64,000 bases of DNA from Acidobacteriota bacterium. GTDB taxonomy: Bacteria; Acidobacteriota; Terriglobia; Acidiferrales; UBA7541. A program made the position numbers and the translations under genes. The stretch lies in NCBI GenBank assembly GCA_003224235.1, contig QHYU01000141.1, forward strand, positions 1 through 64,000. The letters are read 5' to 3'. Under the pieces are notes generated by a model, which saw nothing but the letters and a program-made list of their open reading frames with translations, had not been told where the DNA came from and searched no databases. This document shows, piece after piece, positions 5,703 through 64,000 of the stretch (position 1 is its first letter; every line of letters starts with the position of its first letter).

Positions 5703-5720
5703 AGGCGAAACGCCGCTAGT

Positions 5721-6427: not shown

Positions 6428-6454
6428 CCCGGCGCGGCCCTTTAGCTGCGCCGG
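6427..6454. terminator. bidirectional hairpin between efp and the HD-GYP gene
   Basis: CCCGGCGC (6427-6434) pairs with GCGCCGGG (6447-6454), and the stem extends inward to a CCTTTA loop. It begins at the last base of efp and lies between two convergent genes, so it can end transcription from both sides. There is no long T tract. Confidence 0.6.
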
Positions 6455-6501
6455 GCCGATGGCCGCCTCACACGCTCCGAGCGAACGGTGCTTTTCGGCG
6501 C

Positions 6502-7494: not shown

Positions 7495-7612
7495 GGGACC
7501 CCCGAATTAGCCTGAACGGGATTCGGAGGGGCAAGCGGAATTTCCCGGCAGGTCAAATAGTGTTTGGAATTCTCGGAAGGGAATCTAATTCTGGCAACTC
7601 TCAGAGAAGCTG

Positions 7613-8944: not shown

Positions 8945-9155
8945 ACTCTTTTCCTTTCCGGCCGGCTCGCTCCACGCAGCAATGCGCGTTGCCGTGCACA
9001 CAGCCAGACCCTAGCCATGTGAGCTTTCTTGCCAAATGGCGGGGAAATTCCCTACGCAATCATACCTGAAGTCCCGCGCTTCTTGGGAAGGAAACGCGCG
9101 GAATCACCCTGGCTGACTTGGATCGTCAGAGGCGTTCAGTCTGCCTACCCTTCCA

Positions 9156-9168
9156 CCTAACCGTTAGG
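9156..9168. promoter_or_regulatory. perfect short palindrome before the ECF sigma gene
   Basis: CCTAAC-C-GTTAGG lies 17 bases before the sigma-factor start codon, where it could bind a regulator or form a small hairpin near the ribosome site. No binding protein is implied by sequence alone. Confidence 0.4.
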
Positions 9169-9184
9169 CCAGAATTCAAGTCTA

Positions 9185-9805
9185 ATGAGGCGAATGGACG
9201 GGAGTGATGCGGAGCGAGTAGCGCAGGCCCTGGCCGGCGATCGGGACGCGTTTCGTGTCCTGGTCGAACGCCACAGCCGCAGCATCTTCCGGCTGGCCTA
9301 TCGTATGACCGGGAACGAGCACGACGCCGAAGAAGTCGTGCAGGAAACCTTTCTGAAGGCCTATCGGCGCCTCAGCCGATTTGAGTCGCGGTCGAATTTT
9401 GGCACCTGGCTCTACCGCATCGGAGTGAACTGTTCGCTTGACCTGATGCGCAAACGCCGCCCAGACTCCGAACGGCGAGACTCCGACGCCCCCGAAGGTT
9501 CCGAAGCCGTGCGCGAATTGCCCAGTCCCGACCCGGCTCCCGACCGGCTGTTGCTCAGCGCCGAACTGGGACGCCAAGTCGCGAAGGCGCTCGGCGCGCT
9601 GAGCCCGACGGAGCGCGCTGCGTTCCTGCTAAGGCATTTCGAGGGCCAGTCGATTGAAGAAATCGGCCAGGCGTTGGGTTTGCGGGCGAGCGCGACCAAG
9701 AACAGCGTCTTTCGCGCAGTGCAGAAGCTGCGCCTCGCCCTTGAGCCCTTCGTGCAAGTAAAGCCGAATGTAGCGGCTAGTCGAGCCCCGAGCCCAAACC
9801 AATGA
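9185..9805 (+). CDS. ECF-type RNA polymerase sigma factor
   Basis: This 206-residue sigma-70 family factor of the extracytoplasmic-function class directs RNA polymerase to a stress or envelope regulon. Region 2 is clear (FRVLVERHSRSIFRLAYRMTGNEHDAEEVVQETFLKAYRRL, SNFGTWLYRIGVN), followed by an acidic linker and region 4 (LGALSPTERAAFLLRHFEGQSIEEIGQALGL, a helix-turn-helix). The extra C-terminal tail after FVQVKPN is short. Its stop overlaps the next gene by four bases (ATGA), and that gene encodes a zinc anti-sigma factor, so the pair is an obvious sigma/anti-sigma switch. An ATG at 9194 is a possible alternative start. Confidence 0.93.
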   Translation: MRRMDGSDAERVAQALAGDRDAFRVLVERHSRSIFRLAYRMTGNEHDAEEVVQETFLKAYRRLSRFESRSNFGTWLYRIGVNCSLDLMRKRRPDSERRDSDAPEGSEAVRELPSPDPAPDRLLLSAELGRQVAKALGALSPTERAAFLLRHFEGQSIEEIGQALGLRASATKNSVFRAVQKLRLALEPFVQVKPNVAASRAPSPNQ

Positions 9806-10584
9806 CGCACCCGAGTGAAGAACAACTTATCGCGTATCGCTACGGCGACGTGTCCGAAACCCAGGAGCGCGCCGCAATCGACCGCCATCTCGCCAGCTGC
9901 GATGCCTGCCGTACGAGCTATGAGGCGCTCCAGCGCGTCCTCGCTGCCGTCGAGGCTGCTCCAGTTCCCGAGCGCGACGCCTCCTACGGCAGCCGCGTGT
10001 GGCAACGAATCAGCCCGCAACTCGATCAACGGGAGCGACTCGACTGGCGCGCCTGGCTGGTGCCGCGGCGTTGGGTCGCCGTGGGCGCCATGGCTGCGCT
10101 GGTGTTTGCGGCTTTCCTGGCAGGACGCTTCTGGCCGCGGCCAACGCAGCAAGAATCGGCCGGACCGATCCCCGTCCAGGTGCGCGAACGCATTCTGTTG
10201 GTGGCGGTGGGGGATCACTTGGACCACGCGCAGATGGTGCTGGCGGAACTGGTCAATGCGGGAGCAACCGAAACGTTGACGAAGGGCGGGGTGGACATTT
10301 CCTTCGAGCAGCAGCGGGCGCAGGACCTGGTGGAAGCCAACCGGCTCTACCGGCAGACCGCTACGCGCACGGGCGATTCCACTCTAGTCAACGTCCTCGA
10401 TGAGCTCGAGCGCGTACTGGTGGAGATTGCGCACAGTCCAGCGCAACTCTCCTCGGCGCAACTGAACGAAATCCAGCAGCGCATCGAGGCGCGAGGGATC
10501 CTTTTCAAAGTGCGCGTGATCGGCTCGCAAGTGCGCGAGCGGGAGAAATCCGCGGGGCAGATTGCGCCGCGTGGCAGGTCTTAG
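9802..10584 (+). CDS. zinc-binding membrane anti-sigma factor
   Basis: The 260-residue protein should hold the upstream ECF sigma factor inactive at the inner membrane. The N-terminal ZAS domain has the metal motif His29-x3-Cys33-x2-Cys36 (HLASCDAC). A single membrane segment lies at about 91-113 (WVAVGAMAALVFAAFLAG). The periplasmic part (VRERILLVAVGDHLDHAQMVLAELVNAG and two long helices) resembles no sensor domain I can name. Start ATG overlaps the sigma stop, so translation is probably coupled and stoichiometry kept. The release signal is unknown; the two HEAT-repeat proteins encoded immediately downstream are candidates for the sensed or controlled system. Confidence 0.9.
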   Translation: MTHPSEEQLIAYRYGDVSETQERAAIDRHLASCDACRTSYEALQRVLAAVEAAPVPERDASYGSRVWQRISPQLDQRERLDWRAWLVPRRWVAVGAMAALVFAAFLAGRFWPRPTQQESAGPIPVQVRERILLVAVGDHLDHAQMVLAELVNAGATETLTKGGVDISFEQQRAQDLVEANRLYRQTATRTGDSTLVNVLDELERVLVEIAHSPAQLSSAQLNEIQQRIEARGILFKVRVIGSQVREREKSAGQIAPRGRS

Positions 10585-10602
10585 AAGGGAAGGCAACGAT
10601 AG

Positions 10603-12033
10603 ATGATCCGAAAGATGAATTGGCTTTCTCGGACGTGGCTGGTGATTCTGTTGGCCGGGATGCTCGCGGCGCCGGCTGCCGCAAGCGGGCAAGCGCCCAA
10701 AGGGGCGATCCGCGTGCCGGCTTCGAGTATTTCCGACCGTGTCGCAGATGGCATCACCGGAGAGGTGGCAGGCAGCATCCACGCGGGCGACGCGGGGGGT
10801 GACGCGCAATCGCGCGAGGAAGAGCAAAGGGAGCACGAGCAGGAAAAGCGTGACCGGGAGCAGGAGCGTCGAGACCGCGAACAGGAAAAAAAGGACCGCG
10901 AGTTGGAGAAGCGCGACCGGGAGCAGGAGCTCTACGATAACGCTCTGGAAGCGGTGGACGAGGCCCGCTGGGAGAAGGCTGCCGCGAAATTCGACAAAGT
11001 GTCCAAGGGCGGTGGACCCCGCGCGGATGCGGCTCTCTACTGGAAGGCCTACGCGTTCAACAGACTCGGCCGGCGCGACGATGCGCTGGCCACACTCGGC
11101 GAGCTCGGCCGGACCTACCCGCAGAGCCGCTGGCTGAAAGACGCGAAGGCTCTCGAAGTAGAGGTTCGTCAATCCACCGGGCAGCCGGTTCGGCCGGAGA
11201 GCGAAACAGATGAAGACCTGAAGGTCATCGCCATTAACGGCTTGCAGCACACCGATCCCGAGCGCGCGGTGCCCCTGTTGGAAAAAGTTTTGCAGGGTTC
11301 GGGTTCGCCCAAGCTGAAGCAGCGCGCTCTGTTCGTCCTGGCCCAAACCGGGTCGCCACAGGCGCGCGAGGCGATGGCCCGCATCGCGCGGGGCCAGTCG
11401 AATCCCGACTTGCAGCGGAAGGCAGTGGAGTATCTGGGCCTGTTCGGCGAGAAGGAGAGCCGCCAGGTGCTGGCGGACATCTACGCCGGGTCGAGCGACG
11501 TGGACGTCAAGCGCTCGATCCTGCGCAGCTTCATGGTGGCGGGCGATCGCGAACGCCTTCTAGCAGCGGCTCGAGGCGAAAAAGTGGTCGAACTGCGCCG
11601 CGAATCCATCCGCCAACTGGGAGTGCTGGGCGCGCAGCCCGAGCTTTGGCAGCTCTACCAAAACGAGTCATCCGTGGAAATCAAGGAACAGATTCTGCAA
11701 GCGATGTTTGTGGCCGGAAACGCCGAGAAGCTGATCGAGCTGACGCGAACGGAAAAAGTGCCGGAGTTGCGCCGCAAGGCGATCCGCAACCTGGGTCTGC
11801 TGGGCTCGCAACGCGCGGGCGAGGCACTGGTGGCGCTCTATGGCAACGAGAAAGATGCTGAGGTCCGCCGCGAGGTGCTCAACTCATTCTTCTTGCAGGG
11901 AAACGTCAAGGCGCTGATTGAAGTGGCCCGCAAGGAAACCGATCCCGGCCTCAAGAAAACCGCAGTGCAGAAACTTTCTCTGATGAACACGAAAGAGGCT
12001 ACCGATTTCCTCATGGAAATTTTAAACAAGTAG
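10603..12033 (+). CDS. exported HEAT-repeat protein with charged repeat region
   Basis: The 476-residue protein has a signal peptide (SRTWLVILLAGMLAAPAAASGQA). A highly charged helix at about 71-110 is built from near-repeats of K/R-DREQE. A TPR-like unit follows (YDNALEAVDEARWEKAAAKF, ADAALYWKAYAFNRLGRRDDAL). Repeated two-helix HEAT units at about 205-475 fall in pairs such as KLKQRALFVLAQTGS, DLQRKAVEYLGLFG, ELRRESIRQLGVLG and ELRRKAIRNLGLLG. Such proteins bind other proteins and have no catalytic residues. It starts 18 bases after the anti-sigma gene and is followed 12 bases later by another HEAT protein, so it is the third gene of a four-gene operon. The actual ligand is unknown. Confidence 0.85.
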   Translation: MIRKMNWLSRTWLVILLAGMLAAPAAASGQAPKGAIRVPASSISDRVADGITGEVAGSIHAGDAGGDAQSREEEQREHEQEKRDREQERRDREQEKKDRELEKRDREQELYDNALEAVDEARWEKAAAKFDKVSKGGGPRADAALYWKAYAFNRLGRRDDALATLGELGRTYPQSRWLKDAKALEVEVRQSTGQPVRPESETDEDLKVIAINGLQHTDPERAVPLLEKVLQGSGSPKLKQRALFVLAQTGSPQAREAMARIARGQSNPDLQRKAVEYLGLFGEKESRQVLADIYAGSSDVDVKRSILRSFMVAGDRERLLAAARGEKVVELRRESIRQLGVLGAQPELWQLYQNESSVEIKEQILQAMFVAGNAEKLIELTRTEKVPELRRKAIRNLGLLGSQRAGEALVALYGNEKDAEVRREVLNSFFLQGNVKALIEVARKETDPGLKKTAVQKLSLMNTKEATDFLMEILNK

Positions 12034-51414: not shown

Positions 51415-53031
51415 CTAGGTCCGGCCGAGGACAAAATCGTGTAACTTGCTTGCAATATTTCTTCCTTGCCAGAACAGGTAGTCTCGCCCCTCGATAACCT
51501 CCGGGATCTCCCATCCCAGCGCGACGCCGAAGAAAACTCCGCAGAAGGTGCCGCTGCCAACGGCCAGCCCTTCGGCAGCCGCAAACCCGACAGAAAAATC
51601 CCGCGAGCCGCCGACACCCAGCGAGAGCACCGCGACCCGTTGCGCCAGCCAGGCCGACAGCAGGGCAAGCAGAAAGATCCGAACGGCAAACAGGACTAAT
51701 GGCCCCAGGCTCAAGGCCCGGTACCGCAGCGACAGCCAGAGAGCCAAGCCACCGGCGATAAGCCACACCAGCGAGCTGTAAAACAGTGCCAACCGGTCAG
51801 CGCCAGAAGAAACCGTGAGGACCGGCGCGAAGAGCGTCAGAAGAAGTGCAGTGGCCAACTGATAGCAGGCGGGGATCCACGTGTTCTGCGCCGCGTAAGT
51901 GATTTTTTCCATGTACGCCAACGCAACCGCTGCCGGTGCACCGATCACCAAGAGCCCAAACAGCCGCGCAACCGTTTCAGATGCTTCGGCCGAAAAAGCC
52001 CCCCGCTCGAACAGCAGCACGACCACCTGACTGCGCAAGGCGTAGAGCAAGCAGGCGAGCGGGATGGCAATGAAAAGTGCCATGCGCATTGCCCGCATGC
52101 AAATCCCGCGAAACTCTTCGCCGGGAAGCGACTGATGCGTCTCCGCAAAACGTGGAAACAGCACTATGGCCAGAGCCAGCGGCGCCACTGAGACCACCAG
52201 GCACAACTTCCAGGCATAGCCGAACAGCGCGAGGCTCCCCGGGGGCAGTTCTGAAAGAACCCGATTGATCACGATTGCCGCCCATTGCCCCAGCAACACG
52301 GTTCCCAGCAGCGGCAAAGCCAGCGTCAACATCCTGCGCACACCGGGGTGCGTCGGATCGAGCTTCCAGGGGAACAAGGCCCCCGCCTGGCGCACGAGCG
52401 GAATGCACTTGACCAAGTACAGCATGGCGCTTATAACCGCGGAGATCATCACACCGAGGACGAGGCTGGCGGCTCCGAGCGTCCTTCCCAGGCTCAGAAT
52501 CGATAGCACGATCGCCACGTTTCCTGCCAACTGAGTCGCTGGAGGCAGCCAAAAAACTCTGTGCGCGTACAGCACCCCCGCCGCCACTCCGTTCCAAACC
52601 AGCAGGGAAGCGGCGGGCACGAACCAGCGGACGAACACAGCAGCCGTCTCCCTGGCCTCTCCCGCCAGTCCTGGGGCAAGAAGACCAACGATGGGTTCTG
52701 GATGGAAAAACACTAAAACAGAAAACAGGATTGCCGGAACCAAGAGGAGATTAGCTACCGAGAGCGCTACGTGCCACGCCTCCTTCTCCTGCCCACGCCC
52801 CCGATATTCGGCGAACACCGGAACCACCGCGTGGGGCAGGATTTGAATCACAAACAACTGCTGGCCAAACACTAAAAGCAGCATCCCAATCCGAAACGCA
52901 TCGACGGTAGGCGAAGCACCGAATCGCCAAGCCAAAGCGATCTCCACGGCCAGCCCCGCCAGCGGGCTCAGTACCGCCAGCCCGCTCAGGGTAGCGGCAG
53001 CGCGCGCTGTCGCGTAGTGATTCCTGCTCAT
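51415..53031 (-). CDS. MurJ/MviN-type lipid-linked oligosaccharide flippase
   Basis: This 538-residue MOP-superfamily membrane protein (about 13-14 segments) matches MurJ: the start AATLSGLAVLSPLAGLAVEIALAWRFGAS, the amphipathic TVDAFRIGMLLLVFG, and later FSAEASETVARLFGLLVIGAPAAVALAYMEKITYAAQNTW. Within this cluster it most likely flips the completed EPS repeat on its lipid, as no Wzx gene is seen. Its start overlaps the gmhB stop (53028-53031). Confidence 0.85.
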   Translation of the reverse strand: MSRNHYATARAAATLSGLAVLSPLAGLAVEIALAWRFGASPTVDAFRIGMLLLVFGQQLFVIQILPHAVVPVFAEYRGRGQEKEAWHVALSVANLLLVPAILFSVLVFFHPEPIVGLLAPGLAGEARETAAVFVRWFVPAASLLVWNGVAAGVLYAHRVFWLPPATQLAGNVAIVLSILSLGRTLGAASLVLGVMISAVISAMLYLVKCIPLVRQAGALFPWKLDPTHPGVRRMLTLALPLLGTVLLGQWAAIVINRVLSELPPGSLALFGYAWKLCLVVSVAPLALAIVLFPRFAETHQSLPGEEFRGICMRAMRMALFIAIPLACLLYALRSQVVVLLFERGAFSAEASETVARLFGLLVIGAPAAVALAYMEKITYAAQNTWIPACYQLATALLLTLFAPVLTVSSGADRLALFYSSLVWLIAGGLALWLSLRYRALSLGPLVLFAVRIFLLALLSAWLAQRVAVLSLGVGGSRDFSVGFAAAEGLAVGSGTFCGVFFGVALGWEIPEVIEGRDYLFWQGRNIASKLHDFVLGRT

Positions 53032-53657
53032 AGCTCGATTGCGTTATCCGCCCCGCGTGCCAACGCCGCCGCGGTACCCTTGGGTTTTGGTGCCCGCCCT
53101 TGGCTGCCAGCGCGCGTTTCGCGGCGCCTTTCCAGCTCCCCCAGAATAATTTCTGCGGCCGCAGGGAGATCCGGCACCATAAAATCCGCCGCCACTCCAA
53201 CTGGGACACCCAGCGTCGCGGCGACCTGAATCGTCGCGCAGCCCGCCGCCTTGCCCGCCGCAATATCTTTCCAGGTGTCACCGACCAGGAATGACGTCTC
53301 GAGATGAATGTTCCAATCCAAGCTGGCGCGGCGGAGCAACCCAGGATTCGGCTTCCGGCAGGTACAGCCGTTACGATCGTCGTGTGGGCAGGCGTAGATG
53401 GCATCAATGGGAACGGCTTTGAGCAAACGGTCATGCATGCGCTCGAGCTCGGCCGGAGCCAGCGCACCGCGGGCCAGATCGGGCTGGTTGGTCACCACAA
53501 TCACCAACAGCGAAGCGCGCTGCAAGGCTGCCACCGCGGGGCGCACTCCCGGCAGCAGCGCAAACTCTGCCAGCCTGCGCGGCGACACGCTTTGGCCATC
53601 GCGCGCGACCAGCCGGTTCAGCACGCCGTCCCTATCGAGGAACACGGCCCGCCGCAT
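53028..53657 (-). CDS. gmhB: D-glycero-D-manno-heptose 1,7-bisphosphate 7-phosphatase
   Basis: This HAD-superfamily phosphatase removes the 7-phosphate from heptose 1,7-bisphosphate. It has 209 residues, with the nucleophile motif VFLDRDGVLNRLV, VVTNQPDLARG, the zinc-type cysteine/His loop (YACPHDDRNGCTCRKPNPGLL) and SFLVGDTWKDIAAGKAAGC. The last 25 or so residues (SQGRAPKPKGTAAALARGADNAIEL) are a variable tail. It overlaps gmhA by 26 bases and the flippase by four. Confidence 0.9.
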   Translation of the reverse strand: MRRAVFLDRDGVLNRLVARDGQSVSPRRLAEFALLPGVRPAVAALQRASLLVIVVTNQPDLARGALAPAELERMHDRLLKAVPIDAIYACPHDDRNGCTCRKPNPGLLRRASLDWNIHLETSFLVGDTWKDIAAGKAAGCATIQVAATLGVPVGVAADFMVPDLPAAAEIILGELERRRETRAGSQGRAPKPKGTAAALARGADNAIEL

Positions 53658-54273
53658 GAGTAGCCTTCTGCTCCGCGCTGGCGCGAATCCGGTCGGCCAG
53701 GCAAAACGTCACCAAGTGATGGAGCACAACGTGGAACGATTCCACGTGCGGCGTGGTGTTGTAGGGCACCACCACGCAGACATCGGCCAGGTCCTTCATC
53801 GCGCCGCCGTCGAACCCCGAAAAGCCTAAGGCATAGCCGCCGCGGTCCCGGGCATACTGCATGGCACGGAGCAGGTTCTGCGACCACAGCCCAGCTTTGT
53901 CGCGCCCGCTGCCGCCGTGCACGCTGATGCCGACCACAACGTCACCAGCGTGGAACAGCGATTTCAACTGCTCGACGTATACGTTTTCCCAGCCATCGTC
54001 GTTGGTCAGCGCGCTCAGCAAGGGAATGTTATCCACCAAGCTCATCGCACGCAGCCGGGGCTGGTTCGGGACAATCGTGCACTTGCATAGGTCCGCCGCG
54101 AGGTGGGAGGCTGTACCCGCCGAGCCACCGTTCCCGCAGGTGAAGATCGTGTTGCCACGCTGCCAAGCGCCCCAGACCATCTCAACCGCGCGGCCAATGG
54201 CTTCCCGATCGATGGTCTCGGCAATTTTCTTGATACCGTCGAGATAACCCTCGATCCAGCCCTGGTTCACCAT
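53632..54273 (-). CDS. gmhA: sedoheptulose 7-phosphate isomerase
   Basis: The SIS-domain enzyme turns sedoheptulose 7-phosphate into D-glycero-D-manno-heptose 7-phosphate, the first heptose step. The 213 residues show FTCGNGGSAGTASHLAADL, the phosphate-binding ISVHGGSGRDKAGLW (where typical members have ISTSGNSxN) and HVVLHHLVTFC. GGGGAG precedes the ATG at 54273. The first 90 or so bases overlap the end of the Gfo/Idh gene in another frame. The altered serine loop (HGGSGRD) puts it in a divergent GmhA branch. Confidence 0.88.
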   Translation of the reverse strand: MVNQGWIEGYLDGIKKIAETIDREAIGRAVEMVWGAWQRGNTIFTCGNGGSAGTASHLAADLCKCTIVPNQPRLRAMSLVDNIPLLSALTNDDGWENVYVEQLKSLFHAGDVVVGISVHGGSGRDKAGLWSQNLLRAMQYARDRGGYALGFSGFDGGAMKDLADVCVVVPYNTTPHVESFHVVLHHLVTFCLADRIRASAEQKATHAAGRVPR

Positions 54274-55297
54274 GCTCCCCTCCGGTCAGTGAAACTGCAC
54301 ACCGCTTCTCTGCGGATTCATATGCCGCAGCGACCAGCCGCAGCGCTTGCCAGCCATCAAACCCGTCCGCCAGCGGTTGGCGATCTTCGCGCAGGGCCGA
54401 AACAAACTCCTCCCACTCGCGGGCCCAGGAACCGTCATCGCCGTCGTATTCGATCAGCTCCTCGGCCGGGGGGCCGAACGTTGCTGCGCGGTGTCCAACC
54501 ACCAGGCGTTCCCGGCCGTAATGTCCGCCCAAGCCTTCGACGATCAGGTAACCCTGCTCGCCAAAAACCTCGAACGAGAAAAGGTTCTTCCACTGCGTCC
54601 AACTGGCGTGCAGGCTGGCCACCTGCCCATCGGCTGTGCGCAGGGTGCAGAACGCGTTGTCTTCCACCGGCGTGTGCCAGAACGAGCTTCCCAACACCGC
54701 AAACACCTCGCTGAATTCACCGAGAAACCAGCGAAACAAATCCAAAGCGTGAATACCCTGGTCGAGCAGCTCGCCGCCGCCACTCTGAGCGCGGTTGGCG
54801 CGCCACTCCTGCTCATAGCCGGCGCGGCCGCCGTGGCCGTAGCGGCAGCGGAGAAACATCAGCCGGCCGATGCAGCCGGTTCGGGCCAGCGCGTGCGCTT
54901 CCCGCAGCGCCGGGTGGTGTCGGTGATTGAAGCCGGTTTTGAGCTTCGCGCCATTGCGCGCCGCGGCCGCAACCAAGCGTTCCGCCTCCGCCGCGGTGAT
55001 TGCCAGCGGCTTCTCGCACAGTACGTGCTTCCGCGCTTCGAGCGCTACAAGGCTGATGGGAGCAAGCCAGTTGTGCGGGGTGGCCACAACGACGGCATCG
55101 ATGTCCCGCGCGGTGACCAACGCTTCCCAGTTGGTGCCCGCGCGACACCCGTACGCCTGGGCCAGTGTCTCGGCGCGCTCGTGATCCTGGTCCACAATTG
55201 CCACCAGCCGCGTTTGCGAGCAGTGCGCCATCGCGCGGGCGCGCTTTGCTCCCATGCGCCCGGCCCCGACAATTCCCACTCGCAACACCGCGTTCAC
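54182..55297 (-). CDS. Gfo/Idh/MocA-family oxidoreductase
   Basis: The 371-residue NAD(P)-dependent sugar oxidoreductase has the Rossmann start VGIVGAGRMGAKRARAM, the EKPL motif in HVLCEKPLAITAAEAE and the catalytic region SGGGELLDQGIHALDLFRWFLGEFSE, with the Asp/His pair. The substrate is probably a nucleotide- or phospho-sugar of the EPS pathway. The normal C-terminus (LRLVAAAYESAEKRCAVSL) is followed by about 35 more residues that overlap gmhA by 92 bases in another frame. A frameshift or lost stop near 54290 may explain that tail. Confidence 0.87.
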   Translation of the reverse strand: MNAVLRVGIVGAGRMGAKRARAMAHCSQTRLVAIVDQDHERAETLAQAYGCRAGTNWEALVTARDIDAVVVATPHNWLAPISLVALEARKHVLCEKPLAITAAEAERLVAAAARNGAKLKTGFNHRHHPALREAHALARTGCIGRLMFLRCRYGHGGRAGYEQEWRANRAQSGGGELLDQGIHALDLFRWFLGEFSEVFAVLGSSFWHTPVEDNAFCTLRTADGQVASLHASWTQWKNLFSFEVFGEQGYLIVEGLGGHYGRERLVVGHRAATFGPPAEELIEYDGDDGSWAREWEEFVSALREDRQPLADGFDGWQALRLVAAAYESAEKRCAVSLTGGEHGEPGLDRGLSRRYQENCRDHRSGSHWPRG

Positions 55298-56145
55298 CTG
55301 CGAACCTCCGCGAACTGCCGCCCGTCGATGCGCCGGAGTGTGAACATTGCCGAGCGCTTGAGTTCTTGTGCCTGGTTGGGCAGCGACTTCCAGTCATCCC
55401 AAACGGCGCTGATGAGCCGGCCGGTGATCCCAGCGGCCGCTGGCGAGGCCAAAAAAACCGCCAGTTCGGCAGCCAGTTCGGGCGGGGTGCCGCCATTGGC
55501 TTTTTGCTCCAGCGCCTTGGCGTAAAATTCTTTGCCTGCCCGATCCTGCGCCGCGAGAATCTGGTCGAGCAGACGCGTGTTCACCGCGCCCGGCGCAATC
55601 GCGTTGATGCGCACGCCGGAGTCTTTTACCTCTTCGGCCACGGTTTCGGTAAGACGTACCACCGCTGCCTTTGAAGCGCTATAAGCGCTGAAGCGGGGAA
55701 AAGGCGCCACCGCGCCTCCCCCCGAAAAATTGATGACCACTCCTTTGCCGCGCGCGAGCATGTGCGGCAGGCAGGCATGCATGCAAAACACCGCGCCCAG
55801 CAGATTGATCTGCACCGCCTGCACCCATTCTTCCAGGTCGTTCTCGACTAGCGGACCGATGGGCCCGTAGATGCCCGCCGCATTGACCAAGACATCGATC
55901 CGGCCGAACTTCTCCAGCGCAGCGGCCATGATCCGTTCCACTTCCGACCGCCGGGATACATCCCCGCTCAGGGCAACCGACGTCACTCCCAGCGCCGCGG
56001 TCTGTCGGGCCACCTGCTCGATCTCTGCCTGCGTGCGCGAGAGCAACACCAAGTTGGACCCCGCACGCGCAAAGGCATGCGCAATGGCCTCGCCAATCCC
56101 GCGGCCCGCGCCAGTAATCACAGCGGTCTCGCAGTCGAGTCTCAT
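55294..56145 (-). CDS. short-chain dehydrogenase/reductase
   Basis: The 283-residue classical SDR has the cofactor motif TGAGRGIGEAI, NAAGIYGP, the catalytic Ser in INFSGGGA, and Tyr-x3-Lys in SAYSASKAAVVRL, then NAIAPGAVNTR. A few extra residues close the chain. In this sugar cluster it may reduce or oxidise a keto group of a modified heptose, together with the flanking oxidoreductases; no substrate can be fixed. Both ends overlap neighbours by four bases, as in the rest of the operon. Confidence 0.86.
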   Translation of the reverse strand: MRLDCETAVITGAGRGIGEAIAHAFARAGSNLVLLSRTQAEIEQVARQTAALGVTSVALSGDVSRRSEVERIMAAALEKFGRIDVLVNAAGIYGPIGPLVENDLEEWVQAVQINLLGAVFCMHACLPHMLARGKGVVINFSGGGAVAPFPRFSAYSASKAAVVRLTETVAEEVKDSGVRINAIAPGAVNTRLLDQILAAQDRAGKEFYAKALEQKANGGTPPELAAELAVFLASPAAAGITGRLISAVWDDWKSLPNQAQELKRSAMFTLRRIDGRQFAEVRR

Positions 56146-57476
56146 TGCGCTACTCCTACTGCATTACGTTCCTCAAACTGGTCGGGGATGCCGACCCCGC
56201 TATACTGGAACCCAGCGCGGCGCGCCGCGCGGTCGTCGAGGCAGTTGTGCGCATCAATTAGCACACCCTGTCGCATCGCTCGGCGTAGCCGAGTCAGGTC
56301 TAGCTTCTGGAACTCTGGCCAGGGCGTCATGATCACCATTGCGTCCGCAGACTCCGCGGCTTGGTAGGCATCAGCACACAGCGTGATTCCGTGAGTCTCT
56401 GGCCGCGGTTGGGTCACGCATGGATCAAAGGCCTGCACGTGCGCGCCGGCTGACAGCAGCAGACGAGCCAGCTCGATCGCATGCGAGCGGCGCAGGGTGT
56501 TTGTGCCGGGTTTGTAGGTGAGGCCCAGCAGACCCACGCAGATTCCTTGCAAGCCGCCGCAGGCGCGGCGAATTTTCTCGCGCAACGCGGGCAGGCGTTC
56601 CGCATTCACCGCCAGGGTGGCGTCCAGTTGCAGGGTTTTCCGACCAGACCGCTCGCCCAGGTGCCGCAGCGATTGAACGTCTCGTCCCAAGGTGCCGCCA
56701 CTGAAGCCGGGCCCCGGGCTCAGAAAAGCGCGCGGGCCGATTCGCCGATCGTGCCGCAACGCGCGAACCACATCCCGCACATCAGCGCCGCAAGTTTCGG
56801 CCAGGCTGGCCAGTTCGTTTACAAAACTGATCGAAGTGGCCAAGTACGCATTGAGCGCATGCTTGGTCATCTCTGCGCTGCGGATGCTCATGGTTAGGCA
56901 GGGCGCGGCCACGCCGGAGTAAAGCCCCAGCAGGCGTTCCGCAGCGGCAGGGTCGTCGGCACCCACGAGCAGAAAATCGGGCTGGAGAAAGGTTTCCAGA
57001 GCCTCGCCCAGGCGCAAATTTTCGGGGTGGTAGACAAGGCTGAAGGAAAGCTGCGGCGCTCGGGCGCACAGTTGTTCGGCCAGTTCATGGCACGTTCCCA
57101 CGGGCACCTGGCTCATCACCACAATCTCTACGGCACCGCGCGCTTCGGCAATGGCCTCAAACGCCGCGAGGATGGGCGACAAATCACTCTGATCTTTTTC
57201 GCTGACCGGCGTATCGAAGGTGATAAAGATGAAGTCCGCTCCCGCGAAGGCTTCCTGGCAAGAGGGGAGAAAATCCAAGCGGCCGTTCCCCATCTGCTCG
57301 TCAATCAGTTCGGCCAGCCCCGGCTCGTACACCGGCAGGACCCCGCGCAGCAGACTGCCGAGCGTTCCGGCATCGAAATCGGTGGCGCGCACGGTGTGGC
57401 CGAGCCGGGCCAGCGACGCTGCAGCCACACATCCGAGATGCCACAGCCCCACGACCGCTATGCGTGCGCATGCCAT
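56142..57476 (-). CDS. UDP-glucose/GDP-mannose dehydrogenase-like protein lacking the catalytic Cys
   Basis: The 444-residue protein has all three parts of the family: the NAD domain (VVGLWHLGCVAAASLARLGH), the central helix (AEMTKHALNAYLATSISFVNELA, with Lys205 and Asn209) and the UDP-binding domain (LLGLTYKPGTNTLRRSHAIEL). The active-site motif, usually GGxCxxKD, reads GGTLGRD: Leu263 stands where the thioester-forming Cys should be and Arg265 replaces Lys. The normal four-electron oxidation to a uronic acid is then not expected. It may stop at an aldehyde, act in the reverse direction, or be a scaffold. It sits between the heptose kinase and an SDR, and overlaps hddA-like by 19 bases. Confidence 0.85.
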   Translation of the reverse strand: MACARIAVVGLWHLGCVAAASLARLGHTVRATDFDAGTLGSLLRGVLPVYEPGLAELIDEQMGNGRLDFLPSCQEAFAGADFIFITFDTPVSEKDQSDLSPILAAFEAIAEARGAVEIVVMSQVPVGTCHELAEQLCARAPQLSFSLVYHPENLRLGEALETFLQPDFLLVGADDPAAAERLLGLYSGVAAPCLTMSIRSAEMTKHALNAYLATSISFVNELASLAETCGADVRDVVRALRHDRRIGPRAFLSPGPGFSGGTLGRDVQSLRHLGERSGRKTLQLDATLAVNAERLPALREKIRRACGGLQGICVGLLGLTYKPGTNTLRRSHAIELARLLLSAGAHVQAFDPCVTQPRPETHGITLCADAYQAAESADAMVIMTPWPEFQKLDLTRLRRAMRQGVLIDAHNCLDDRAARRAGFQYSGVGIPDQFEERNAVGVAQ

Positions 57477-58495
57477 GCCAGACTCCTCTGCCCATGCACC
57501 GTGCCGTCGGTCAGGTTTGCCATGACCTTGGTGCCTTCGAAATCAAACCGGTAGCGCATTTCCCGCAGCCCGGCGGCACACAGGGCTCTGCGCAACTGGT
57601 GGTGCCGGGTCTCGGCATAAAATACGAAGAATCCTCCGCCGCCGGCTCCGGAGATCTTTCCGCCCAGCGCTCCGTTTTGTTTGGCGAGTTCATAGAGCTG
57701 GTCGAAGCGCGGATTGGTAACCCGCGCGGAAAGTTTTTTCTTGGCTTGCCAATGCTTGTCGAGCGCCAAGCCAAAATCGGTCAGGTTGCCCCGCTCGATC
57801 ATTTCCAGGATCTGGTAGCCCATCTCTTTGATCGCGTGCAGGCTGTCAACCACCGCGTGCTGCGACGTGGACACGCCGCGGCTTTGCTCGGAGAGAATGT
57901 CGAGGCTGGAACGCTCGGTGCCGGTATAAAAAACCAGCAGGTTGCGCTGCAGCTCGTCCACAACGGAATCAGAGACATCGGCGGTGGTAACCTCGACGGC
58001 GCCATCGCGAGCGATTTCCAGCACCGTCAGCCCGCCGAACGCCGCCAGGTACTGGTCCTGCTTGCCGATCGGCTTGCGGAGAATCTCGATCTCCAACCGG
58101 CAGGCTTCCTCAGCCAGTTCTTGGAATCCGACCGGCTGGCGTTTCATGGTGTGCAAGGCGTTGAGCAAACCCACCGCATAGCAGCTCGAGGAACCCAGCC
58201 CAGTCCCGGCCGGCACATCCGCCATCGAGACAATCTCCAGGCCGCGTTCCATCCCGATCAGGCGCATTGCTTCCCGCGCAATCTCGTGCTTCAACTGGTC
58301 CCGGTGGCTGACCAGTTCCGACTGCGTGTACTTCACGCGGACGAGATCATCGACAATGGGGCGGTTGACGCTGATGAACATGTATTTGTCCAGCGCCGCG
58401 GCAAAGATGAACCCGCCGTACTGCGAGTAATACGCCGGCAGGTCGGTGCCGCCACCGCCCAACGTGATTCGAAATGGAGTGCGGGTGATGATCAT
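57458..58495 (-). CDS. hddA: D-glycero-D-manno-heptose 7-phosphate kinase-like GHMP kinase
   Basis: This 345-residue GHMP kinase probably phosphorylates heptose 7-phosphate at C1. Motif 1 is TRTPFRITLGGGGTDLPAYY, motif 2 is DVPAGTGLGSSSCYAVGLLNAL and motif 3 is GALGGKISGAGGGGFFVFY. The IGKQDQYLAAFGG segment is typical of the HddA/FkP kinase group. Close cousins act on fucose, so fucokinase-like activity is an alternative, but gmhA and gmhB in the same operon favour the heptose. GGAGG lies near the ATG at 58495. Confidence 0.82.
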   Translation of the reverse strand: MIITRTPFRITLGGGGTDLPAYYSQYGGFIFAAALDKYMFISVNRPIVDDLVRVKYTQSELVSHRDQLKHEIAREAMRLIGMERGLEIVSMADVPAGTGLGSSSCYAVGLLNALHTMKRQPVGFQELAEEACRLEIEILRKPIGKQDQYLAAFGGLTVLEIARDGAVEVTTADVSDSVVDELQRNLLVFYTGTERSSLDILSEQSRGVSTSQHAVVDSLHAIKEMGYQILEMIERGNLTDFGLALDKHWQAKKKLSARVTNPRFDQLYELAKQNGALGGKISGAGGGGFFVFYAETRHHQLRRALCAAGLREMRYRFDFEGTKVMANLTDGTVHGQRSLAWHAHA

Positions 58496-58513
58496 CTGCC
58501 TCAGCCTCCTGGT

Positions 58514-59635
58514 TCAGGCGTGCACCGCCGCGACACGCAAAACTCCGTGTTGCTTCATCTCCGCAGCGGCCTGATCGGAGTTGTCTGGAAGCTCTCGCTG
58601 CTGGCGGACCCATTCCACATAGTCCGCCACAATTTGCTCCACCGAAAAGCGCGGCATCCAACCCAGCCGGCACAGCTTCGAGGAATCCGAAACGGTGTGC
58701 CGGGCGTCGCCGACCCGGAATTCGCCGCGGAGGACCGGAGCAAGACCGGTGCCGCATCGCGCCGCAACTATATGCGCGAATTCCAACACGGTGACGCCCT
58801 GGGTCCCACCCACATTAAAGACTTCGAAGTTGCATTCCGGCCGCTCGAGCGCCAGCAAGTGCGCCGCAGCAACGTCGCGCACGTGGACGTAGTCCCGAAG
58901 CTGTCTTCCGTCTTCGTAAACGACCGGAGGTTTGCGATTCAGCAACCGCTGCGTAAAGGTGCGGCAAATACCTGAGTAGGCGTTGTAGAGCGAGTTCCGC
59001 GGGCCCTGCACAATCGAATAACGCAGTGCCACAGTTGGGATGGCGTAGCGGCGGCCCAATTCGATTCCCACCAGCTCAGCCGCATACTTCGAAATGCCAT
59101 AGGCCGTGTGTGGGCGAACGACGGATTCATCAAACGGCACCGGGGCCAAGCTCCGGCCACAACGCCGGCAGGCATGTTCCCAGTTGCCGCACTGTAACTG
59201 CTTGAGCGGCCGTGGGTCAGGATGAAACACGCCGTGTTCGGCACAAACGTATTGGCCTTCGCCATACACCGCCTGCGAAGAGGCCAGCACGACCTTTTCG
59301 ATTGCGAGGCGCTTTTCGACGATCAGCTCGAACAGCAGCGCGGTGCTGCAGGCATTGACCGCGATAAAGGTGCTGAAATCCGGCAGGTAGTCCTGGTAAG
59401 CAGCCAGATGAAAAACGTGCCGCACCCCTTCCAGCGCGCGCTCCCAAGCTGAGCGGTCCCGCACATCGCCTTGGACGAACTCCACCTGCGCGGAAAGGTA
59501 AGAGGGACGCCCGCGCGGGTGCACACGAGGTTGCAGGCAATCCAACACGCGCACTTCGTAGTTGCGCGCCAGCAAGGCATCACAAGTGTGCGAGCCGATA
59601 AAGCCCGCCCCGCCAGTCACCAGGACTCGACTCAC
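58514..59635 (-). CDS. NAD-dependent epimerase with Cys insert, dTDP-L-rhamnose 4-epimerase-like
   Basis: The 373-residue extended SDR opens with SRVLVTGGAGFIGSH. It has Tyr-x3-Lys in YGISKYAAELVG, VVLASSQAVYGEGQY and LRDYVHVRDVAAAH. Between the two last-named regions lies an insert at about 131-165 holding CAEHG and later HACRRCG, with Cys131, Cys149, Cys156 and Cys159 as possible zinc ligands. This insert is known to me from enzymes annotated as dTDP-L-rhamnose 4-epimerase. A GTG start at 59635 is chosen because AGGAGG lies seven bases ahead; the frame extends to 59659. Confidence 0.82.
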   Translation of the reverse strand: MSRVLVTGGAGFIGSHTCDALLARNYEVRVLDCLQPRVHPRGRPSYLSAQVEFVQGDVRDRSAWERALEGVRHVFHLAAYQDYLPDFSTFIAVNACSTALLFELIVEKRLAIEKVVLASSQAVYGEGQYVCAEHGVFHPDPRPLKQLQCGNWEHACRRCGRSLAPVPFDESVVRPHTAYGISKYAAELVGIELGRRYAIPTVALRYSIVQGPRNSLYNAYSGICRTFTQRLLNRKPPVVYEDGRQLRDYVHVRDVAAAHLLALERPECNFEVFNVGGTQGVTVLEFAHIVAARCGTGLAPVLRGEFRVGDARHTVSDSSKLCRLGWMPRFSVEQIVADYVEWVRQQRELPDNSDQAAAEMKQHGVLRVAAVHA

Positions 59636-59645
59636 CGCCCCCCTC

Positions 59646-61106
59646 CTAATACGCGCCACGGCCTCGCAGGACCACCGGCACCGTTTTCAGCAGGATCTTC
59701 AGGTCCAGCCAAAGCGAGGCCTTCTGGATGTACTCGAGATCGAGTTGCGCCCACTGGTCGAAGTTGTGAATGTGGTTTCGTCCGTTGACCTGCCACAAGC
59801 AAGTAATTCCCGGCTTGATGCTCAGCTTCCGCCGCTGCCAAAATTCATAGCGGTCCGCCTCTTCCTGGAACGGCGGCCGCGGCCCCACCAAGCTCATATC
59901 TCCCTTCAAAACGCTATAGAACTGGGGCAACTCGTCGAGGCTGTATTTGCGGAGGAAGCGCCCGAGCGGGGTGATCCGAGGATCATCGCGCATCTTGAAC
60001 GCCGGCCCGACCATCTCGTTCCGCCCCAGAATTTGAGGCTTCAACTCCTCAGCGTTGGGCACCATGGTACGAAACTTGTAACTGACAAACGGCTTCTTGT
60101 TCACACCCAGCACCTTCCAGCGGTAGAACACCGGGCCATGGGGTGAAGTGAGCTTCACAAGAATGGCAAGCAGCGCAAGCAGCGGCGCAAGCAGGAGCAG
60201 CAGCAAAGCGGAGATCGCAATGTCCATCACACGCTTCACAAACAGATAGCTGCTGTGCCGAGGCACACTCGAAAGCGCCGCCACAGGCCGCCCGAAGAAG
60301 GAATCGATCCGTACCTGCTGCTGATCTACGGTGTAGCCCAGGCGCTGAACGTAAAAGTCGGGGAGCACCACAACTCGCAAGCCCAATTCCAGCGCCGCGT
60401 CCATCAAGTCTTTGGCCTCCGGTACACGCTCCGGGGGCATCGCAAAGACCACGATGTCAACCGGGTGGGCAAACAGGTAGCAACGCAGAATCTTTGTCGA
60501 GCCGACGACCCGAACCCCTTCGACCTCCCGGGGAGCCTGGGCGGCCTCCGGCTCGAAACACCCCAGCACTTCGTAATGGCCTTCCTCGGCTTGGCGAGCC
60601 TGCCGGATGAACTCCCGGGCCCGCTCGCGCGTGCCAATCACCAGGATGCGCGCGATGTTGTAGATGTGCGAACGATGCGCCTCCAGAACCGAAAGAAAGA
60701 GCCAGCGGGTAGCAATCGAAATCGGCACCAGCAACACGCAGAACCCGAAGATAATCAGCCGGCTCACGGTCTGCAGCTTGAAGGCAAAAATCAGCGCAGA
60801 CAGTGCCCCCAGGCCGAACAACTGCAAGCGCACCGTGCGCGCGATGACTGCTCGCCAAGACAGCCGCGTGGCGGAGTTGAGACCGAGAGCTTCCAGCAGC
60901 AGGTACCAGAGCGGAAAGATTAGCAGCAGCAGCCAGGCATGCGCGGCAAAGGGCCCGGGAGCAAACGCTCCGGCGCGCAGATAGTGCCGGTAGTTCGGAA
61001 GCAGGCGATAGGAGAGAAAGAAGCTCGACGAAATGGAAAAGGCATGGCTCAGCAGCAACACCCGGCGCCCGCTCCAGTCTCCAGTGGGATGGCACGTGGT
61101 AGTCAA
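59646..61106 (-). CDS. polyprenyl glycosylphosphotransferase (WbaP/WcaJ type)
   Basis: The 486-residue enzyme transfers a sugar phosphate from a nucleotide sugar to undecaprenyl phosphate and so starts the EPS repeat. The order is several N-terminal membrane helices, a CoA-binding-like cytosolic domain (ILVIGTRERAREFIRQARQAEEG) and a membrane anchor (RVMDIAISALLLLLLAPLLALLAILV). The catalytic domain has KFRTMVPNAEELKP, DDPRITPLGRFLRKYSLDELPQFYSVLKGDMSLVGPRPPF and KPGITCLWQVNGRN. A TTG at 61106 is the likely start, with GGGGAG ahead. It lies just after the aldolase gene. Confidence 0.92.
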   Translation of the reverse strand: MTTTCHPTGDWSGRRVLLLSHAFSISSSFFLSYRLLPNYRHYLRAGAFAPGPFAAHAWLLLLIFPLWYLLLEALGLNSATRLSWRAVIARTVRLQLFGLGALSALIFAFKLQTVSRLIIFGFCVLLVPISIATRWLFLSVLEAHRSHIYNIARILVIGTRERAREFIRQARQAEEGHYEVLGCFEPEAAQAPREVEGVRVVGSTKILRCYLFAHPVDIVVFAMPPERVPEAKDLMDAALELGLRVVVLPDFYVQRLGYTVDQQQVRIDSFFGRPVAALSSVPRHSSYLFVKRVMDIAISALLLLLLAPLLALLAILVKLTSPHGPVFYRWKVLGVNKKPFVSYKFRTMVPNAEELKPQILGRNEMVGPAFKMRDDPRITPLGRFLRKYSLDELPQFYSVLKGDMSLVGPRPPFQEEADRYEFWQRRKLSIKPGITCLWQVNGRNHIHNFDQWAQLDLEYIQKASLWLDLKILLKTVPVVLRGRGAY

Positions 61107-61136
61107 CAGCAGATCTCCCCGACCGACTCGAGCACG

Positions 61137-61829
61137 TTACTGAGCCGCGGTCTTGTACTGGCTGATCTGCGCCAGCGCCTTTTCGGCATCCTGATTGAAC
61201 TGCCGCACGGTTTCCCGGCTGTACTTGTGGTCCACCATCTTGGACAAAAACTGCGGCGGAATGGTGACGATATGCGCGCCAGCCAGCGCGGCGCTCTGGA
61301 CATCGATCACTGCGCGGATGCTCCCCACCAGGACCTTGGCCGGGTAGCCCCATTCCTCCAGCCAATGCCGCACGCCGCGAATGATGCTGGCAGGGTCGTT
61401 CCCTTCGTCGCTCACGCGCCCCGCGAAAATGCTCAGGTAGGTCGCGCCGGCCTTGGCCGCCAGGATGGCCTGATTAAAGGAGAGAATCGCAGTGGTATTG
61501 ACAGGAACTCCTTCACGGCTGAGGGTATGAATCACGCCCAGGCAGGAGTCACCGCATTCGTTGACCACCGGAATCTTCACCACGACATTGGGTGCCCAGC
61601 GGGCAAACGTGCGGCCCTGCTCGAGCATTCCCTTAGCGTCGTTCGTGGTTACCTCGACGCTTACGGGGCGATTCCCCAGCAACGTGCACAACCGCCGCGC
61701 ACCTTCTTCAAGGCCATAGACGCCATCCTTGAGCATGATGCTGGGATTGGTCGTCACCCCATCCACCACGCCCTGGCGGAGCCAGTGCTCAATCTCGCGG
61801 AAGTTGGCTGAATCGAGAAAGATTTCCAT
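61137..61829 (-). CDS. fructose-6-phosphate aldolase/transaldolase-like protein (TalC/MipB type)
   Basis: The 230-residue single-domain aldolase has the short-transaldolase pattern: MEIFLDSANFREIEHWL, DGVTTNPSIMLKD, the Schiff-base Lys in VVVKIPVVNECGDS, and LSIFAGRVSDEGND. Length and motifs fit the FSA/TalC group, which cleaves fructose 6-phosphate or transfers dihydroxyacetone. As a transaldolase-type enzyme it could shift carbon among sedoheptulose 7-phosphate and C6/C3 sugars, the input to GmhA. AGGAGGT lies before the ATG. Confidence 0.87.
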   Translation of the reverse strand: MEIFLDSANFREIEHWLRQGVVDGVTTNPSIMLKDGVYGLEEGARRLCTLLGNRPVSVEVTTNDAKGMLEQGRTFARWAPNVVVKIPVVNECGDSCLGVIHTLSREGVPVNTTAILSFNQAILAAKAGATYLSIFAGRVSDEGNDPASIIRGVRHWLEEWGYPAKVLVGSIRAVIDVQSAALAGAHIVTIPPQFLSKMVDHKYSRETVRQFNQDAEKALAQISQYKTAAQ

Positions 61830-61870
61830 CTGCGACCTCCTGAGAAAACATGACCGGTTCGGCTTCGCGT

Positions 61871-64000
61871 TCAGCCTTTGCTGTCTCCGCTGGGATGCTC
61901 GTCGGAGCCGTAGTAGTTATAGTGATAATATCTATAGTAGTAGTCATCGCCCCCGCGCAGATCGAGATTGTTCAGGACAACGCCGATCAGATTGGCGCCG
62001 ACACCCCGGGCATATGCCCCGGCCCGCTGCGCCAGCTCTCGCGGCGTCTCACCACCCTTGACCACCAGAACGATGCCCTCGACCAGCGTGGCCAAGATAC
62101 GGCTGTCGGCCACATTGAGTAGCGGCGGAGAATCCACCACGACAAAGTGGTACTCGACTTTGGCTTCGCGCAGCAGGGTGCGCATGCGTTCGGAAGAAAG
62201 CAGCTCAGCCGGGTTTGGGGGCACGGGGCCGCAAACCAGCGCGTCGAGGCTTTCGAGCCCGGTGGGCCGGACGGCTGCGCGCCAGTCCTGCTGGCCGGTC
62301 AGGTAGCTCACCAGACCTAGCGAGTTGTCGATGTCAAAAGCCTTCCGCACACTCGGGCGTCGCATGTCACCGTCAATCAGCAGCACGCGCTGGCCAAGCT
62401 GGGCAAGCGAAATGGCCAGGTTGATGGAGACGGTGGTTTTCCCTTCGCTCGGCTGCGAACTACTCACGAGCAAAGTGCGCGGCGGCCGGTCCGCAGTGGA
62501 AAGCAGAACCGAGGTGCGCAAGCTTCGAAACGATTCCGCCAGCGCGGACTGCTGGGTTGCCTCGGCATCGATCCGGTACCACCGCGGTGTCGTCGACGGC
62601 AGGGCCAAGGTTCGCGGCTTTCCATTGGCGAGCGGTTTGCTCCCACCATACAGGCGATACACGCCTCTTCGACGGCCATTGAGCGACTCCACCGCAGGGA
62701 TCAGCGCCAGCGCCGGCAGGCCCAGGAACCGCTCGACGTCCTCGGAGGTCTTCAAGCTGTTATCTACATGCTCTTGCAGAAAAGCTGCGCCCACACCCAG
62801 GCCGGTTCCCAAAAGCACCGCGAGAACCAGATTGAGCGGCAGGTTCGGGCGAGCGGGTTTCTTCGGTGGCTCGGCTGCGTCCACAATGCGGATGTTGCTG
62901 GCCTTCAGGCCCGCTGAGACACCAGCCTCCTTGAGCCTTTGCAGCAGGCCTTCGTAGAGCTGTTGGTTGGTTTCTACTTCGCGCTTGAGAATATTGTACT
63001 GCACAGATCGGCCAGCAATCAGGTTGGCCTGCTTCTGCTGCTCGGCAAAAGCCTGCGCAACCAAGTTCTCCCGGCGCACCGCGGCCAGATAGTCGTTGAT
63101 GATGCGCCCGGCCACGCGGCCACGCTCCCGCGCGAGCGTCGCGTCCAGTTCGTTAATCTGGCTTTGGATTTGCCGGACCTTGGGGTAGTCGGCGGTAAAG
63201 GTGGTCGCGAGCTGTGCCTGTTCGCGCTGCAGGTCGGCCAGGCGGACGGCGAGGTCGGCGACCAGCTTGTTCTCTGCCATGCCGGGCAGTGAGGCATAGT
63301 CGGCGGCCTGGACCAGCCGGTAGAGCGATTCTTTCTCGTAGCGCGCAGCCTGCGCGCGGGTGAGTTCCTCCTGGAGTTGGCGCAGCCGTTCGTTGACGAT
63401 ATTCTCCGGAACGCCCTTCTCTCTTTCGAGGAAGAGCAGGCCGTTCTCACGGGCATAGCTTTGCAGTTCGTTCTCGGACTTCTCCAGCCGTGCCTTCAGC
63501 TCCAGCAATTGCTGTGAGAGCCATTCGGAAGCTTTCTGCGTGGCTTCCCAGCGCACCTCCAAGCTCTGCTCGATGTAGTGGGAGGCTAGGGCATTGAGCA
63601 CCCGAGCCGCCAGTTCGGCATCCCGCGACTCGAAGCTGATTTCGACCAGGCGGCTGCGTTTGATCGGGTCCACGCTCAACCGGTCGCGGAACCTTTTGAG
63701 CGCGGTCTGGTAGGCTCGGGGATCGCGCTCCGTGTCTCCGGCAGTAAACGACTGCGGTGCCGCGGCGTTTTGCGGCTTGGCGTCGCCCAGCTGAGACGCT
63801 CGCGGGTTGAACTCCTCGAGCATGTCCAGACGAAGCCCCTCAATCACCCGCCGGGCTAGCGTGTCGCTTTGCAGGATCTTGAACTGCGTTTCGAGGTAAG
63901 TGTCAGAAACGGTGTCGAGCGCGAACAGCTCCTGCACGGTCAGGATATTGGGGTTTTCCTTGGCCACCTCGAGCAGGGCCTTGGCGCGGTAGATTGGCTT
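61871..64000 (-). CDS. polysaccharide co-polymerase/tyrosine autokinase (Wzc type), 5-prime end cut
   Basis: This inner-membrane Wzc-like protein controls EPS chain length and export. The window holds 709 codons; the frame stays open at the right edge (KPIYRAKALLEV), so the first residues of the Wzz domain lie outside. Visible in order are the Wzz part, a long periplasmic coiled coil (AQAARYEKESLYRLVQAA, VRQIQSQINELDATLARE), the Pro-rich Wzz end (PPKKPARPNLPLNLVLAVLL) with a membrane segment, and the kinase with Walker A (SSQPSEGKTTVSINLA), VLLIDGDMRRPS (Walker A') and VVVDSPPLL (Walker B). The C-terminal tyrosine cluster DDYYYRYYHYNYYG has eight Tyr that would be autophosphorylated. Confidence 0.92.
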   Translation of the reverse strand, partial: KPIYRAKALLEVAKENPNILTVQELFALDTVSDTYLETQFKILQSDTLARRVIEGLRLDMLEEFNPRASQLGDAKPQNAAAPQSFTAGDTERDPRAYQTALKRFRDRLSVDPIKRSRLVEISFESRDAELAARVLNALASHYIEQSLEVRWEATQKASEWLSQQLLELKARLEKSENELQSYARENGLLFLEREKGVPENIVNERLRQLQEELTRAQAARYEKESLYRLVQAADYASLPGMAENKLVADLAVRLADLQREQAQLATTFTADYPKVRQIQSQINELDATLARERGRVAGRIINDYLAAVRRENLVAQAFAEQQKQANLIAGRSVQYNILKREVETNQQLYEGLLQRLKEAGVSAGLKASNIRIVDAAEPPKKPARPNLPLNLVLAVLLGTGLGVGAAFLQEHVDNSLKTSEDVERFLGLPALALIPAVESLNGRRRGVYRLYGGSKPLANGKPRTLALPSTTPRWYRIDAEATQQSALAESFRSLRTSVLLSTADRPPRTLLVSSSQPSEGKTTVSINLAISLAQLGQRVLLIDGDMRRPSVRKAFDIDNSLGLVSYLTGQQDWRAAVRPTGLESLDALVCGPVPPNPAELLSSERMRTLLREAKVEYHFVVVDSPPLLNVADSRILATLVEGIVLVVKGGETPRELAQRAGAYARGVGANLIGVVLNNLDLRGGDDYYYRYYHYNYYGSDEHPSGDSKG

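Follow-up and report, generated by a model that had tools for sequence, protein, structure and literature searches.

The window, by which we mean the whole 64,000-nucleotide stretch of DNA analysed, carries a compact operon on the minus strand (51415-63967) in which genes for heptose synthesis surround a member of the UDP-glucose 6-dehydrogenase (UGDH) family. In the order of the operon, the products are a transaldolase or fructose-6-phosphate-aldolase-like protein that is a probable source of sedoheptulose-7-phosphate (61137-61829), a polyprenyl-phosphate sugar-phosphate transferase for chain initiation (59646-61106), an extended short-chain dehydrogenase/reductase (SDR) of the NDP-sugar epimerase/dehydratase type (58514-59659), an HddA-like GHMP kinase (heptose-7-phosphate 1-kinase; 57458-58495), the UGDH-family protein, which lacks the catalytic Cys (56142-57476), an SDR oxidoreductase (55294-56145), a Gfo/Idh/MocA oxidoreductase (54182-55297), a GmhA-like SIS isomerase (sedoheptulose-7-phosphate isomerase; 53632-54273), a GmhB-like HAD phosphatase (heptose-1,7-bisphosphate phosphatase; 53028-53657) and, at the operon end, a MurJ/MATE-type flippase (51415-53031). 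GmhA, HddA and GmhB occur together in the window (53028-54273 and 57458-58495), with NCBIfam scores under the equivalog cut-offs; the kinase, for instance, matches NF049969 with 170 bits, under the model's cut-off of 600 bits. The preliminary description had placed a UGDH-family gene inside a heptose operon, and the flanking HddA-like kinase, SDR, Gfo/Idh/MocA, GmhA and GmhB genes confirm this.

The extended SDR has a Cys/His-rich insertion after YGEG (CxxHG ... CxxC) that is conserved at loci L139-L141, L185 and L186, and is possibly the zinc site of an NDP-sugar epimerase. No nucleotidyltransferase was found in the window operon or in the DNA read from its closest relatives, L139-L141, which have the same gene order (L139 and L140 end at contig ends). 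A nucleotidyltransferase elsewhere on the contig or in the genome was considered and set aside, the five NTP_transferase proteins of this genome being weak candidates only, with 20-28% identity to the nucleotidyltransferases linked to the family at other loci.

A UGDH fold with an exchanged active site

The reading frame of the UGDH-family protein is intact (444 aa) and overlaps the following SDR gene by 4 bases. The protein matches PF03721, PF00984 and PF03720, the UDPG_MGDP_dh domains, above the Pfam cut-offs, as do all 67 of 67 family members described below, and it passes the cut-off of the NCBIfam subfamily model TIGR03026 while matching no equivalog. An AlphaFold model (mean pLDDT 95.2, pTM 0.90) retrieved only UGDHs as top structures in Foldseek, namely BceC, UgdG and the P. 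gingivalis and human enzymes, with TM scores of about 0.9. By domains and fold, this is a member of the UDP-glucose/GDP-mannose dehydrogenase superfamily.

We aligned the catalytic motif against 4a7p, 3gg2 and 3vtf. The canonical GGSCFPKD aligns with SGGTLGRD, so that codons 260-266 (GGTLGRD; 56679-56699, minus strand, computed from the gene start) place Thr262 at the position of Cys260, Arg265 at that of Lys263 and Asp266 at that of Asp264. The same residue is reached by counting four positions back from the conserved Asp. The preliminary description had named Leu263 as the replacement of the catalytic Cys, which is off by one; Leu263 stands for the Phe that follows the Cys. Its other readings of this site hold, in that the catalytic Cys is absent with no other Cys at the catalytic place, Arg265 replaces the motif Lys, and Lys205 and Asn209 are kept, to which Asp266 can be added. 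Its list of changes was incomplete, and omitted Trp12, His13, Gln123 and Leu156. The first two of these lie in codons 10-15 (57432-57449, minus strand, likewise computed from the gene start), where GLWHLG replaces GxGYVG, with Trp12 at Gly9 and His13 at Tyr10. A second Cys acting as a stand-in was also considered and rejected, since none is conserved near the site; the sole near-invariant one, Cys226, is placed towards the end of the long central helix, and ordinary UGDHs have an equivalent of it.

These exchanges are fixed across the family. In a joint alignment of 86 sequences (50 from the family, 36 canonical UGDHs), all 50 family members have Thr in the Cys260 column and all 36 canonical enzymes have Cys. 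Every one of the 50 members has His at Tyr10, Gln at Thr118 (Gln123 here) and Arg at Lys263, and 49 have Leu at Glu145 (Leu156 here); at Gly9, the second Gly of GxGxxG, Trp is found in 49 members and Tyr in one. Lys204 and Asn208 are kept in 50/50 and Asp264 in 49/50, Glu141, Arg244, Lys320, Arg327 and Thr83 are kept in all, and Asp29 nearly always. The window protein itself retains Asp33 (NAD ribose) and Thr89, and the substrate-binding Lys322, Arg245 and Arg329. A wider family alignment has Thr262 in 66 of its 67 rows, the single exception being the archaeal L019 with His, and chance can therefore be excluded for the loss of the Cys. Gene decay or sequencing error can likewise be rejected, given the fixed motif of the family, which relatives at 59-60% identity keep; the earlier view that the gene is not decayed agrees with this and with its full-length open frame.

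The functions of these residues in canonical enzymes have been described. The first oxidation relies on Asp264, Lys204 and Asn208; for the second, a thiohemiacetal is formed by Cys260; Tyr10 is the catalyst of thioester hydrolysis, and Thr118 holds a water at the NAD ribose (PMC4794789). Among 229 NDP-sugar dehydrogenases, Cys260 and Thr118 are invariant and Tyr10 is 98% conserved (PMC4794789). Judged by the alignments, the hallmarks of a four-electron NDP-sugar dehydrogenase, Cys260, Tyr10 and Thr118, are missing from the window protein and Lys204, Asn208 and Asp264 are present; the family has thus exchanged the residues of the second half-reaction and retained those of the first.

A widespread family

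When one genome per species was scanned, 78 loci were recovered, and every locus that includes this part of the gene has the GGTLARD-type site, so the loss of the Cys is not a one-off mutation. They come from at least 14 bacterial phyla, including Chloroflexota, Acidobacteriota, Pseudomonadota, Planctomycetota, Verrucomicrobiota, Kiritimatiellota, Vulcanimicrobiota, Elusimicrobiota, Bacteroidota, Myxococcota, Actinomycetota, Rokuibacteriota, Nitrospirota, and lineages related to cyanobacteria; two archaea are represented as well (L019, Sigynarchaeum; L030, Methanoperedens), though single taxon assignments may be wrong because most are metagenome bins. Within 297 genomes of the window's phylum, 7 carry the family with scores of at least 467 bits, and the next matches start at 405 bits, all of those with the motif read having Cys. 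The window's own taxonomic family accounts for 4 of the sampled genomes with the gene, and its order for one more. A tree of the 86 sequences separates the family from canonical UGDHs by a single branch (SH-aLRT 99). On these grounds we regard the family as a widespread and so far unnamed branch of enzymes that otherwise convert NDP-sugars to sugar acids. Searches of the open literature turned up nothing on the motif or on a UGDH without Cys beside heptose genes.

Several members merit individual mention. L095 (locus L148, G148:C34, 6305-7705) is divergent, with GGTLGRE (Asp266 to Glu) and PEFLRLG, and its cassette holds a second UGDH gene adjoining it at 3020-4405; it is possible that L095 is intermediate between the family and canonical enzymes. 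At locus L007, a second UGDH-like gene (9580-11061) near the family member encodes GGPCFPRD, in which the Cys is kept and the Lys replaced by Arg, on a very long tree branch. The contigs of both archaea (5341-11118 in L019) bear the heptose cassette; L019 is without Gfo/Idh/MocA and reads GGHLARD, with His at the Cys position.

Linkage to heptose genes

Linkage was counted within 10 kb of the gene at the 31 loci whose flanks each extend for 7.5 kb or more. HddA, the SDR and the extended SDR each accompany the gene at 29 of the 31 loci and Gfo/Idh/MocA at 30, followed by the transaldolase (26/31), GmhA and a nucleotidyltransferase (25/31 each) and GmhB (24/31). For the two loci that lack HddA within this distance, the genome encodes it at another place. 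The expectation that homologues with this motif would sit beside gmhA, hddA and gmhB is strongly supported by these counts. By comparison, HddA, GmhA, GmhB, the transaldolase and Gfo/Idh/MocA were found in 0 of 20 neighbourhoods of ordinary UGDHs, by which we reject the idea of an ordinary UGDH placed near heptose genes by chance. For HddA, the difference gives a Fisher p = 3e-12, a value that overstates independence since family loci are related by descent, yet the contrast is still total.

The catalytic motifs of the partner enzymes are intact. Across the family, the SDR has retained the catalytic Ser and YxxxK, and it has an Arg after beta-2, which in SDRs usually means NADP(H) and suggests that the cassette SDR uses this cofactor. 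Gfo/Idh/MocA keeps the Lys of EKP and the DQGxH motif, and the motifs of the kinase and the transaldolase are preserved as well, the transaldolase of L034 passing the TIGR02134 cut-off. The linked nucleotidyltransferase belongs to PF00483, and its nearest models are MurU, HddC or mannose-1-phosphate guanylyltransferase, which point to no single nucleotide.

Operons with HddA but without the UGDH-family gene also exist (L184-L186, and L183, which ends at a contig end), and the gene is therefore best seen as adding a modification to the heptose and not as required for its synthesis. One of these, L185 (G312:C7:95000-114000, 2802-11035), is from the same taxonomic family as the window and contains HddA, GmhA, the SDR, Gfo/Idh/MocA and the Cys-rich extended SDR. 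It is a natural comparison for what the UGDH-family protein contributes.

Proposed reaction and alternatives

The residue exchanges, their conservation, the family itself and the gene linkage are observed; from them we infer which substrate is used, that two electrons are transferred, and where and in which direction the reaction runs. We suspect that the protein is a working NAD+-dependent dehydrogenase of UGDH fold that halts after one two-electron oxidation of a nucleotide-activated heptose, and we give this reading a probability of about one half. The best inference is a two-electron outcome, as the protein has other residues in place of Cys, Tyr10 and Thr118 but keeps those of the first half-reaction. 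In this scenario, the transaldolase, GmhA, HddA, GmhB and, in most relatives, the linked nucleotidyltransferase would make the NDP-heptose substrate, and the first hydride transfer would depend on Lys205, Asn209, Asp266 and Glu152, just as in UGDH. The likeliest reacting position may be C6 of the heptose, with oxidation of C7 to an aldehyde as the second choice. Since C6 is a secondary alcohol, its oxidation would give a ketone from which no carboxylate can form, and a thiol would be useless; this is the simplest reason that we can offer for the fixed loss of the Cys. The carbonyl product may then be reduced or rearranged by the SDR, probably with NADPH, and by Gfo/Idh/MocA, giving a modified heptose of an exopolysaccharide. 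The NAD-ribose Asp of the dehydrogenase and the Arg of the SDR would fit oxidation with NAD+ by the former and reduction with NADPH by the latter. More tentatively, and less likely than not in this full form, a UGDH-fold enzyme could have turned into a two-electron oxidase of the C6 secondary alcohol of NDP-heptose, and the resulting pathway, common to some archaea and at least 14 bacterial phyla, could lead to a modified, as yet undescribed heptose in surface polysaccharides. The preliminary description had suggested a changed reaction, such as two-electron oxidation to an aldehyde or the reduction of a keto sugar, possibly on a heptose; conservation and linkage give good support to a changed reaction on a heptose, whereas C6 oxidation, C7 oxidation and reduction of a keto sugar are not separable here.

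Two-electron dehydrogenation of GDP-heptose has a precedent in Cj1427, which is from another family and acts at C4 (PMC10680097). UDP-4-keto-xylose in human UGDH (9dh0) was considered as a precedent for oxidation of a secondary alcohol and rejected, being a product of E. coli ArnA that co-purifies (PMC11713868). Removal of the thiol does not by itself produce a good aldehyde-forming enzyme, because the C276A variant of human UGDH, when given UDP-glucose, fails to complete the reaction (PMC3184952). Stereochemistry also has to be accommodated. UGDH takes the pro-R hydrogen first (PMC4794789), and by our own CIP derivation the pro-R position at C6 of a D-glycero-heptose (6R) is occupied by C7, so that oxidation at C6 would need an altered pose or an L-glycero substrate. 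Such a pose might resemble that of the second (pro-S) step, with C7 in place of the Cys sulphur. Three further observations count against the proposed reading: Trp in place of Gly9 is unusual in an NAD-binding site, a heptose cassette with the SDR and Gfo/Idh/MocA occurs without the protein (L185), and the window operon is without a nucleotidyltransferase.

The unusual Rossmann loop is one reason to consider that the protein is instead a C6 epimerase or isomerase, which would oxidize and re-reduce the heptose on a firmly held NAD with no net redox change, as HldD and GalE do. The exchange of Gly9 for Trp could reflect altered nucleotide release, the loss of the second-half residues would fit, and a C6 epimerase for NDP-heptose is a known need of heptose pathways. 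However, the SDR and Gfo/Idh/MocA nearly always accompany the protein, suggesting that a redox product is released, and we know of no epimerase with a UGDH fold; we consider this unlikely. Slightly less probable again is a reductase acting on a keto- or aldehydo-heptose supplied by the SDR, Gfo/Idh/MocA or the epimerase-like enzyme. The residues of the first half-reaction serve both directions and several other dehydrogenases are present in the cassette, but Asp33 points to NAD over NADP, which usually favours oxidation, and it is the SDR that has the NADP(H)-type Arg.

A catalytically dead subunit that organizes or regulates the other heptose enzymes would account for the lost Cys and the atypical GLWHLG loop. 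Dead copies normally drift at the Lys, Asn, Asp, Glu and NAD-ribose residues, though, and here they are nearly invariant across at least 14 phyla, which makes this improbable. We hold it most doubtful of all that the protein is still a four-electron enzyme, forming a uronic acid from a heptose or hexose through the hydrated aldehyde with no covalent catalysis. The fold and the substrate-binding Lys322, Arg245 and Arg329 are kept, and human C276A is able to oxidize added aldehyde (PMC3184952); against this, every member has lost Tyr10 and Thr118 as well as the Cys, and the Cys is invariant in the 229 dehydrogenases surveyed before (PMC4794789).

From the perspective of annotation, the labels 'nucleotide sugar dehydrogenase' and UDP-glucose dehydrogenase that are assigned automatically predict uronic acids that are probably absent. 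The family is a marker of a conserved set of genes for a modified heptose, carried by bacteria and some archaea that are known mostly from metagenomes. It also represents a natural experiment on the UGDH mechanism, in which the second half-reaction has apparently been removed and the first kept, and through which the roles of Cys260, Tyr10 and Thr118 become directly testable.

Comparison with known systems

The three-domain fold is shared over its full length with the UDP-glucose 6-dehydrogenases BceC (2y0c-e), UgdG (4a7p), that of P. gingivalis (3gg2) and human UGDH, and identity to the bacterial enzymes is 34-37%. Equivalents of Lys204, Asn208, Asp264, Glu141, Arg244 and Lys320 are common to both, as are the NAD-ribose Asp and Thr. 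Unlike these enzymes, the window protein has Thr for Cys260, His for Tyr10, Gln for Thr118, Leu for Glu145, Trp for Gly9 and Arg for Lys263, with GG-x-C changed to [A/S]GG-T, one residue inserted before the motif, and linkage to heptose genes.

6-Phosphogluconate and beta-hydroxyacid dehydrogenases have a related fold with a catalytic Lys and Asn, and oxidize secondary alcohols by two electrons without a Cys. They serve only as a model of how the protein might work, from which it differs in the NDP-binding C-terminal domain and the UGDH sequence; the corresponding NAD_binding_2 model is matched by 1 of 67 family members, and weakly (6e-7). HldD, the ADP-glyceromanno-heptose 6-epimerase, performs redox chemistry at C6 of an NDP-heptose and is an extended SDR, which the window protein is not.

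The closest parallel in pathway logic is the heptose pathway of C. jejuni, in which GmhA, HddA, GmhB and HddC are followed by the C4-dehydrogenase Cj1427 and C4-reductases (PMC10680097). The precursor enzymes GmhA, HddA and GmhB are common to both, most relatives of the window protein have an HddC-like nucleotidyltransferase, and a dehydrogenase is again paired with a probable reductase. No cupin C3/C5-epimerase or C4,6-dehydratase was recognized in the cassette described here. In contrast to C. jejuni, the dehydrogenase has a UGDH fold, and the cassette adds a transaldolase, a Gfo/Idh/MocA oxidoreductase and a classical SDR.
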